NCBI GenBank assembly: GCA_002009975.1
Contig: MTLP01000032.1
Span: 127,443-167,971, forward strand
DNA length: 40,529 bases
Origin: Thermococcus sp. JdFR-02
Lineage (GTDB): Archaea > Methanobacteriota_B > Thermococci > Thermococcales > Thermococcaceae
Direction of reading: 5' to 3'
The translations under genes were made by a program, and so were the position numbers. The notes beneath the pieces were generated by a model. It was not told the origin of the DNA. It searched no databases and saw only the letters and a program-made list of their open reading frames with translations. The stretch's first letter is position 1, and every line of letters begins with the position of its first letter. Shown here one piece after another: positions 16,914 to 19,198 of the stretch.

Positions 16914-16953
16914 TCTTCTTTTTTACCTATATAACCAACTAGGGGTGATGTTC

Positions 16954-17925
16954 ATGGAGGTTAATCTAAATGAGCAGAAGGTTGTTAAAGACATTAAAAT
17001 TGAGAAAGGAATGAATGTTAATCAGATTACAAAGCAACTTTATGAAAGCGGGGGCTTTGTTGCAAAGAAATTTGGCTTAGCTGTAGAGATTCTCGAGAGA
17101 ATGGTAAAAGATGAAAACACGTTTAGATTTTTGAGCTTTCCAGCTTGTATAATGGCAACAGGAACGAGAGGAATTATAGTTGAACTCATTAAGAAGAGAC
17201 TCTTTAATGCTGTAATAACGACATGTGGAACCTTAGATCACGACTTAGCTCGCTTATGGAAGCCCTATTATCATGGCTCATTCTTAATGGATGATAGAGA
17301 ACTTCACAAGCAGGGAATTAATCGTTTAGGAAACGTATTAGTTCCAAACGACAGCTATTGGGTAGTTGAGGAAAAACTTCAAAATATACTCCAAGAAATC
17401 TATGATGAAGGAAAGAGAAGGTTAGCTACTTACGAGTTAATTTGGGAAATAGGAAGGCGATTGGAAAATGAAAAAGGAAAGGAGAACAGCTTGATATATT
17501 GGGCTTATAAGAACAGGATTCCAGTTTTCGTGCCGGGAATTACAGATGGTGCAGTTGGATATCAAATTTGGCTCTTTGCTCAAGATAAGAGTGATTTCAT
17601 CATTGATGTTTTTAAAGATGAGAGCAAGTTGGACGAGATAATGGCAACTCTTGATAGGGAAAACAAAAAAAGCGGCGCTTTGATGATAGGTGGTGGAATA
17701 AGCAAGCATCATACAATTTGGTGGAACCAGTTCTACAAAGAAGGCTTGGATTACGCTGTTTACATAACAACAGCCGTTGAATGGGATGGCTCATTAAGCG
17801 GAGCAAGAATAAGGGAAGCTGTATCTTGGGGTAAAGTTAAGGAAGACGCAAGATACGTTACTGTTGAAGGAGATGCAACACTCTTATTACCATTCATGAT
17901 CGCCGCCCTTTTGGAAAGGCTCTAA
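16954..17925 (+). CDS. Deoxyhypusine synthase
   Basis: This 323-residue enzyme transfers the aminobutyl group of spermidine to a lysine of initiation factor aIF5A, the first step of hypusine formation. The family's NAD-binding motifs TTCGTLDHDLARLW, VPGITDGAVGYQIW and the C-terminal WDGSLSGARIREAVSWGK are present, with the catalytic lysine at about residue 294. ATG 16954 is chosen because GGGGTGAT (16942-16949) is correctly placed; a GTG at 16945 would bury that site. It is followed by a 370-nt non-coding stretch containing hairpins and a repeat-like element. Confidence 0.95.
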   Translation: MEVNLNEQKVVKDIKIEKGMNVNQITKQLYESGGFVAKKFGLAVEILERMVKDENTFRFLSFPACIMATGTRGIIVELIKKRLFNAVITTCGTLDHDLARLWKPYYHGSFLMDDRELHKQGINRLGNVLVPNDSYWVVEEKLQNILQEIYDEGKRRLATYELIWEIGRRLENEKGKENSLIYWAYKNRIPVFVPGITDGAVGYQIWLFAQDKSDFIIDVFKDESKLDEIMATLDRENKKSGALMIGGGISKHHTIWWNQFYKEGLDYAVYITTAVEWDGSLSGARIREAVSWGKVKEDARYVTVEGDATLLLPFMIAALLERL

Positions 17926-17975: not shown

Positions 17976-18096
17976 ATTCCCCACAAATTTTTGGGACATA
18001 AAAAGGGCTTGCTTTAAAATGAAAAGTTGAAAATAACACATAGAATGGATTTAAAACGGAACACAAATTAAGCAAACTAATTCTAAAAAACTAACT

Positions 18097-18192
18097 TTGA
18101 TCAAACTTTTACTTAGCAAAAGTTTGTTAAGAAGGGGGTAATAACCCGCCCAAGTTCATTGAATCCTCCTTCGGAGGTACTCCCCGGGCATT
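18097..18192 (-). repeat. Structured intergenic element, probably a dispersed Thermococcus repeat
   Basis: This stretch combines a perfect 9-bp inverted repeat, CAAACTTTT (18102-18110) and AAAAGTTTG (18118-18126) with a 7-nt loop, and a GC-rich block (18134-18189) in an AT-rich gap. In that block CCTCC (18165-18169) pairs with GGAGG (18173-18177), and GCCC (18148-18151) pairs with GGGC (18186-18189). From memory the same combination recurs between genes in other Thermococcus genomes, but only one copy is present here and I cannot search. On the minus strand AAGGAGGATTCA precedes a ten-codon reading frame, MNLGGLLPPS. It may be a small RNA, a mobile-element remnant or a 3' processing element. 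There is no protein of normal size. Confidence 0.55.
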
Positions 18193-18226
18193 TTATAATT
18201 ATGTGTCATTACTAAAAAGCATTTCG

Positions 18227-18244
18227 CTTCAACTTGCCTTGAAG
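18227..18244 (+). other. Small inverted repeat upstream of the DUF4349 gene
   Basis: CTTCAA (18227-18232) and TTGAAG (18239-18244) form a perfect 6-bp inverted repeat around CTTGCC. It lies just upstream of the TATA-like TTCTTAAATCC (18253-18263) that probably serves the gene at 18296, so it could be a regulator site. Confidence 0.35.
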
Positions 18245-18295
18245 TTTTAGGAATTCTTAAATCCAATGAGAAAAATATAACAAATGGGGATAATT

Positions 18296-19198
18296 ATGAG
18301 AAAGAGATTCTATGTGAGTGTGTTAATTTTGATAATTCTTGCATTAGCTTTTGTTATAGGGAATTATTTTGGAGGTGTTAAGGAGAGCCCTTATGAAAGC
18401 TATTCTGATCAAATTTATACTCCAGCAGCAAAGAAGGGCTTGAGTTTTGAAATTCTTCCTCAAAAACAAGTTCAATACACACCAACAGCTACGCTTGCAA
18501 CTCCCGAATACAAGCAAGTTACAAGTGAAGTATTGGTTCAAAGGCTTAAGAAGGATTACTACATAACAATCCAAGACGATGATCCAATAAGCGTTGCAGA
18601 AGCGATAAAGGAAAAGGTTTCTTCCTTAAACGGATATGTAATAACAGAAGAACTCAGCAAAAGTAAAAGCTTAACAGTCTATTACCTTGAATTTAGAATA
18701 CCAAATGATGCCGCAAGCGAAGAAGAAATGGGAACTTTGTTAAAAAGTTTCAACGTTAGAGAGCTTAGACTTGAAAGTGAAGACGTTACAAGCAGATATA
18801 ATCAAATTATTGCAGAAATTCAAAGCTTGGAAGAGGAGTTAAAGCATTTGCAGGAGTTTTACAGCAAAGCTGAAGATGTAAATGACTTAATGAACATTGA
18901 AAAAAGGATAAGCGAAGTTAACTCTCGTTTGAACTACTTGTATCTGCAAAAAGATTATTATGAAAAAGTCACCGACTACATCACGTATCATGTTAGAATT
19001 GAAAGCAGAGAAGAGCCTGTTTTTGAGGCTGAACTTAACCTCATGAAAACTATATATCAGGCAGTTTATGCATTAATACTTATAATTAGAGGGTTAATTG
19101 CATTAACCATAATATCCCTGCCATTTGTAGGGCTTTATCTCCTTGGAAAAACGATATACAAAAAATACTACAAAGCTATCCAAAAAGAAAAGGAGTGA
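18296..19198 (+). CDS. DUF4349 membrane protein with coiled coil
   Basis: The protein of about 300 residues has an N-terminal membrane anchor (RKRFYVSVLILIILALAFVI), an extracytoplasmic domain, a coiled coil (about 165-225, DVTSRYNQIIAEIQSLEEEL), and a C-terminal membrane helix (about 255-285) with a basic cytoplasmic tail. The DVTSRYxQI...IEKRISEVNSRL pattern is that of DUF4349, a family of membrane-anchored proteins of unknown function. I favour ATG 18296 (preceded by GGGGAT); ATG 18284 is possible as a leaderless start because TTCTTAAATCC is 25 nt upstream of it. The stop codon is just before the JAMM gene, with which it forms an operon. Confidence 0.78.
   Translation: MRKRFYVSVLILIILALAFVIGNYFGGVKESPYESYSDQIYTPAAKKGLSFEILPQKQVQYTPTATLATPEYKQVTSEVLVQRLKKDYYITIQDDDPISVAEAIKEKVSSLNGYVITEELSKSKSLTVYYLEFRIPNDAASEEEMGTLLKSFNVRELRLESEDVTSRYNQIIAEIQSLEEELKHLQEFYSKAEDVNDLMNIEKRISEVNSRLNYLYLQKDYYEKVTDYITYHVRIESREEPVFEAELNLMKTIYQAVYALILIIRGLIALTIISLPFVGLYLLGKTIYKKYYKAIQKEKE

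Follow-up and report, generated by a model that had tools for sequence, protein, structure and literature searches.

The putative sRk11 RNA gene of a Thermococcus genome and the tRNA-type palindrome that follows it

The small RNA sRk11 has been known by name since 2011, when Phok et al. (PMC3124441) described it in Pyrococcus abyssi; Table 1 of that paper lists it as a 50-nt RNA on the minus strand with a TATA box and a unique locus (region 197248–197534, 5′ start 197484). According to the same source, sRk11 was conserved in all thermococcal genomes then known, was expressed at about equal level across all growth conditions, and was documented by a Northern blot for P. abyssi; sRk28 was proposed there as preQ1-riboswitch-like. 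In T. kodakarensis, SscA was placed in the 5′ UTR of the aEF1-alpha gene, and eight orphan RNAs known from Pyrococcus were reported to be transcribed as well, their members being given in the supplement (PMC4247193). Among the matches listed for literature naming sRk11, only PMC3124441 concerned the RNA, and the sRk name was absent from the available portions of PMC5316973 and PMC12713403.

The window analysed here was a 40,529-nt stretch of DNA from Thermococcus sp. JdFR-02, of which the interval 18097–18192 consisted of two separate elements side by side, for each of which the minus strand gives the better reading. The initial annotation had described this interval as a GC-rich structured element. 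All stems named in it (CCTCC/GGAGG, GCCC/GGGC and the 9-bp CAAACTTTT/AAAAGTTTG) were present, but the GC-rich description applied to 18134–18189 only, as the palindrome, with arms CAAACTTTT at 18102–18110 and AAAAGTTTG at 18118–18126, was AT-rich. The GC fraction was 0.53 over the 64-nt match of R1, a covariance model of the GC-rich element, and 0.26–0.30 in most adjoining 100-bp windows. The minus strand of 18085–18205 had a fold z of −3.3, with none of 200 shuffles equally stable, and the plus strand one of −1.3 (20/200 shuffles), which was not clearly above chance. BLAST of 18050–18240 against the same genome gave one full match and one match to the palindrome alone, the GC-rich part being single-copy and only the palindrome recurring. 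The features were located as follows (signed positions are relative to the predicted start):

16945–17925, plus strand: deoxyhypusine synthase gene (NF002294, 437 bits; PF01916), convergent with the sRk11 gene
18102–18126, minus strand: tRNA-type palindromic 3′ element, CAAACTTTTGCTAAGTAAAAGTTTG followed by ATCAAAGTT; 25-bp consensus match
18134, minus strand: predicted 3′ end of sRk11, at or just past the C-run, then T-rich 18129–18133
18134–18189, minus strand: putative sRk11 RNA gene (orthologue; model R1, 87 bits), +1 at 18189
18136–18147, minus strand: stem P3, GGGU/ACCC, abutting P1
18148–18189, minus strand: stem P1, GCCC (18189–18186) with GGGC (18151–18148) and 2–3 more pairs inward
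18154–18182, minus strand: internal loop around P2, near-invariant GAG and C-N-AUGA, closing pair at columns 15–31
18165–18177, minus strand: stem P2, CCTCC/GGAGG (18165–18169/18173–18177), with a GA(A/G) triloop
18212–18226, minus strand: predicted BRE/TATA promoter of sRk11, CGAAA at −37 to −33 and CTTTTTAG at −30 to −23
18284–19198, plus strand: DUF4349 gene (PF14257, E 3e-27 over 18299–19198; start may be 18299), divergent from the sRk11 gene

In genome G006, which we identify as P. abyssi GE5, the R1 match lay at 197424–197487 on the minus strand, so that column 4 fell on 197484, the published 5′ start of sRk11. Two further coordinates were checked in this genome: SscA (RF00063) begins at 636803 and is given as 636804 in the paper, and a BLAST match to the sequence preceding the palindrome at L172 was found at 527745–527798 on the minus strand, the published 5′ start of sRk28 being 527798. 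Based on the position of column 4 and these two checks, the element in the window was taken as the orthologue of sRk11, and we consider it highly probable that the minus strand of 18189–18134 is the gene of this ~56-nt noncoding RNA, with the anatomy listed above. Judged from sequence, sRk11 appears to be an RNA of all or nearly all Thermococcales that has its own promoter and starts at the first G of P1. Evidence for the transcript and its 5′ end comes from the P. abyssi publication, and that for sequence, structure, distribution and promoter match from the present analysis. No Rfam family reached its gathering score, the best sub-threshold E-values (0.44–8.8) being chance-like.

Searching 94 Thermococcales genomes with R1 revealed one full copy in each of 92, including all 74 with completeness ≥90% and contamination ≤5%; completeness was 69% and 53% in the two genomes without a match. 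Under stricter filters, none of 21 other genomes of the phylum matched R1 and none of 151 genomes of another archaeal phylum matched a model R2, although an empty answer of this search proves nothing by itself. By BLAST against 61 genomes, the GC-rich part was found in 36, once each save for a partial second match in G030, and these 36 copies aligned without gaps over 64 columns with a mean column identity of 90%. The alignment used below (A2) had 76 rows, namely 75 of the 92 genomes and the partial copy, with 17 genomes outside it. The partial copy (G030, L122:1023–1056, columns 8–41) adjoins a gene with an end like that of the neighbour of sRk11 in g3, and may reflect contamination or transfer. 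In G021, a 99% complete genome, the sole copy found (L113:2986–3045) was diverged (50 bits), its internal loop lacking GA on one side and AG on the other. The statement in the initial annotation that related sequence lies between genes of other Thermococcales was correct (92/94 genomes), but its dispersed repeat of mobile origin was not supported, the GC-rich part having one full copy per genome. The nucleotide search that it proposed, against the same genome and other Thermococcales, found the whole unit not to be repeated, the GC-rich part to be conserved and the palindrome to be recurrent. Although single-copy, the GC-rich part was strongly conserved, and a transcript has been published for P. 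abyssi (PMC3124441).

Standard pairs occupied 99.1% of the cells of P1, P2 and P3 together. For P1, 99.3% of the cells were paired in register 8–41 (3 unpaired cells) and 100% in register 8–40 (none), the A8 that distinguishes them being too rare (6/76 rows) to decide. P2, which is CCGCC/GGCGG in most relatives, showed a compensatory change from G-C to U-A at columns 18–26 in 4 distinct rows, and 98.4% of the P3 cells were paired, one pair being lost in four distinct rows. The best pair, columns 15–31, was A-U in 43 and G-C in 33 of the 76 rows with no exception. The covariance analysis of copies suggested in the initial annotation gave a covariation score of 0.124, compared with 0.086 ± 0.005 in shuffles (0/500 as high), and changes on both sides in three pairs, reached by 7/500 shuffles; these statistics take no account of the relatedness of the rows, and the compensatory changes rest on those three pairs. 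The number of further pair types (13 versus 12.3 in shuffles, 137/500 as high) was not above chance. A structured RNA gene in the intergenic gap, as first suspected, was borne out. A pseudoknot of the G-run (columns 8–11) with the terminal C-run, considered by eye only, was not supported, four rows losing a C without compensation. At 37°C the 56-mer had a predicted energy of −25.2 kcal/mol, compared with −15.2 ± 2.8 kcal/mol for mononucleotide shuffles (0/500 as low). At 85°C, by contrast, the RNA by itself was predicted to be barely stable (−1.2 kcal/mol; 136/500 shuffles as low). Since the fold at 85°C is no better than that of shuffles, sRk11 probably needs protein or ions at growth temperature.

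To survey the promoter, 75 loci were lined up on the first G of GCCC on the minus strand. A or T was found at −27 to −24 in 93–100% of them, A at −33 to −31 in 63–77%, and a pyrimidine at −1 in 90% (T 77%, C 13%), with a TTTA, TTAT or TTAA word between −48 and −20 in 74/75 loci. With the minus strand read as RNA, the 1360 stem cells comprised 1218 Watson-Crick pairs, 132 G-U pairs and 10 mismatches, compared with 138 mismatched cells for the other strand; the G-U cells come mostly from two column pairs, 8–41 and 9–40. The minus strand was assigned because of the BRE/TATA promoter, the compensatory changes and this G-U asymmetry. T-runs after sRk11 were weak, the longest run being only 2 in 14/75 loci.

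The neighbouring genes differ between genera while the RNA stays. In g2, sRk11 is flanked by an IF-2B-family gene and an aminotransferase gene (Pfam labels from G006 only). Elsewhere, as judged by eye, the gene that precedes sRk11 has an end similar to that of this aminotransferase in g6, is ~450 aa long and at variable distance in many g3 loci, and is mostly deoxyhypusine synthase-like in g5, where sRk11 also converges with the aminotransferase-like gene; in the window, sRk11 is opposite in strand to its two neighbours. As promoter and sequence are kept and neighbours are not, sRk11 is best read as trans-acting; most likely it is a housekeeping RNA that forms part of a ribonucleoprotein (RNP). 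One full copy, little changed, persists in 74/74 well-assembled genomes despite a reshuffled neighbourhood, which makes it very likely that the RNA is needed by the cell.

A K-turn bound by L7Ae has a C-G closing pair, a 3-nt loop ending in U, and tandem G.A/A.G pairs. The internal loop of sRk11, C-(N A U)-G A opposite G A-G, fits this pattern in its letters, although the C-helix is irregular; G11 and A12 occurred in 75/76 rows, with a gap in the other, and A34 T35 G36 A37 in 76/76. On this basis we tentatively suggest that the predicted K-turn-like loop might bind L7Ae. Against it, the C-helix has a bulged Y14 and the G021 copy is without the GA and AG bases; the P. abyssi study does not name a K-turn for sRk11 in its available portions (PMC3124441).

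Other functions were weighed against a trans-acting RNP RNA. If sRk11 were a cis-acting element of a neighbouring gene, either a riboswitch-like leader or a 3′ UTR, one would point to g2, where the aminotransferase gene follows on the same strand, and to g6, where a gene with a similar end precedes it; but neighbours and orientations differ in g3, g4, g5 and the window, the genes flanking the window copy are both on the other strand, and the published transcript is 50 nt (PMC3124441, Table 1), making such a role very improbable. A short coding gene from the conserved ATG (MN[LS]GGLLP..) seems next to impossible: ATGAAC is found in 75/76 rows (ATGAGC in one) and in the window GGAGG stands 5 nt before the ATG, but the frames range from 9 to at least 122 codons with 31 different lengths across 75 loci, and single-base indels in the P3 loop (L029, L030 and L121) break the frame and keep the hairpin. 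The coding gene was rejected on these variable lengths and frame-breaking indels.

Many small RNAs elsewhere act by pairing, and the near-invariant unpaired AUGAA and UUAUU segments of sRk11 would suit a small antisense regulator whose loops base-pair with mRNA or rRNA. Such a regulator is nevertheless unlikely, as sRk11 has no long unstructured segment and its pairing with P. abyssi 16S and 23S rRNA scored 25 and 27, compared with up to 34.5 and 36.5 in 20 shuffles each; rRNA as the antisense target was rejected, the best scores lying below those of shuffles.

The second element, at 18102–18126, differed from the 25-bp palindrome consensus by 1 mismatch; even with 3 mismatches allowed, 100 shuffles of the window contained no match. 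It lies 7 nt behind the C-run of sRk11, placed and oriented as expected of a 3′ element of this RNA, and it is of the tRNA type, that is, CAAACTTTT..AAAAGTTTG plus ATCAAA, at most 10 nt behind an RNA 3′ end in the same orientation. By eye, no palindrome was seen behind sRk11 in 35 other sRk11 loci. The core pattern was found in 55/94 genomes, each of which had between 1 and 10 copies, against 0 for the reversed control, and BLAST of the AT part (query about 14–55) against 61 genomes gave 40 separate matches, several in some genomes. In a first sample of 21 of these 40, mostly the best-scoring, a tRNA 3′ end predicted by ARAGORN lay 0–9 nt away in 21/21, including a variant palindrome read by eye (L152), and the far side of the palindrome read GATCAA (GACCAA in L149). 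In a second sample, 20 pattern copies among the matches listed, 14 stood behind an ARAGORN tRNA, one behind a tRNA-like 3′ end recognized by eye (L162), one behind an sRk28-like sequence, and four (L164, L165, L166 and L173) behind no recognised RNA. Our own tRNA-end pattern identified 16/21 and 14/20 loci, but missed some ARAGORN tRNAs and included among the 14 a locus, L173, where another palindrome follows another tRNA; the counts given are those of ARAGORN. In the sRk28-like case (L172:420–524, G077), the sequence before the palindrome is GC-rich and conserved, and in P. abyssi it coincides with sRk28. At L165:501–524 and L166:501–524, the palindromes of two genomes are flanked on one side by similar GC-rich sequence, perhaps a further small RNA without a name, and L135 carries a degenerate second copy with no recognised RNA. 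A stricter three-block pattern occurred 3 times in the genome of the window: after sRk11, after tRNA-Pro and after the 3′ end of a further tRNA; the last copy (L177:1340–1363, contig C19) adjoins an archaeal phage integrase gene (PF16795) and is likely one end of an integrated element. A clear palindrome was seen by eye behind 5/14 sampled tRNAs in G025 and 1/6 in G003, and behind none in G018 (0/6), G006 (0/10) and G000 (0/4); the palindrome is an optional element, and tRNA flanks without it are common.

A dispersed non-autonomous (MITE-like) repeat that spread between genes, as originally proposed, is highly improbable. The palindrome does recur and is an inverted repeat, but the GC-rich part is single-copy, the palindromes of the first sample stand 0–9 nt behind tRNA 3′ ends in one orientation (21/21), unlike scattered insertions, and 14/20 of the second sample also follow tRNAs, with 4/20 behind no recognised RNA. 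For the GC-rich part the mobile repeat was rejected, the whole unit not being multi-copy at unrelated sites; the palindrome is dispersed, but as most examined copies follow tRNA genes, and one sRk28, a 3′-end signal of stable RNA genes is suggested rather than a transposable unit. With TTTT on each strand, it probably, though by no means certainly, ends transcription or marks the RNA 3′ end. A two-sided terminator would be expected to face a convergent gene; the next frame of at least 90 codons was convergent in 13/21 and not in 8/21, and no clear enrichment of convergent genes was observed. It is a serious if lesser possibility that the palindrome is instead a DNA-protein binding site with AAAGTTTG half-sites, or an integrase attachment arm. 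In favour of this, the AAAGTTTG half-site is repeated, with a spacing of 11 bp between two of them, the palindrome is near-perfect and accompanied in several copies by a third half-site in GATCAAAGTTTG, and the copy at L177 has a tRNA 3′ end on one side and the integrase gene on the other; against it, the tRNA genes that precede the copies are of many kinds, and in two cases (the window and L172) the preceding RNA is not a tRNA. No report of such a palindrome was found in the literature searched, which does not prove its absence.

Taken together, sRk11 may be the RNA of a hitherto unrecognised, order-specific housekeeping RNP built on an L7Ae-bound K-turn, and the palindrome a general 3′ signal of stable RNAs in Thermococcales (tRNA, sRk11 and sRk28), possibly a two-sided terminator read by a dedicated protein; as a whole this model is speculative and rather doubtful. 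The predicted start, promoter and fold of sRk11 are now defined in genomes of six genera, among them G029, which we regard as T. kodakarensis, a genetically tractable species; the palindrome, for its part, is a sequence-defined candidate for ending some tRNA and small-RNA transcripts in Thermococcales.

Compared with the H/ACA and C/D guide RNAs of Pyrococcus, sRk11 is likewise short and structured, with a possible K-turn-like element, but it has no ACA box behind P1 and, by eye, no C and D boxes; an H/ACA guide RNA was rejected, the GGG of P3 standing directly behind P1 in 75/76 rows, with a gap in the other. sRk28 and SscA (sRk33) are, like sRk11, single-copy conserved noncoding RNAs of Thermococcales, but differ from it in sequence. 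The closest described system is sRk11 of P. abyssi itself, with which the window element agrees in locus by coordinate, size class, uniqueness, TATA promoter and conservation, whereas the window copy lies in another genus, has different neighbours, and is followed by a tRNA-type palindrome.
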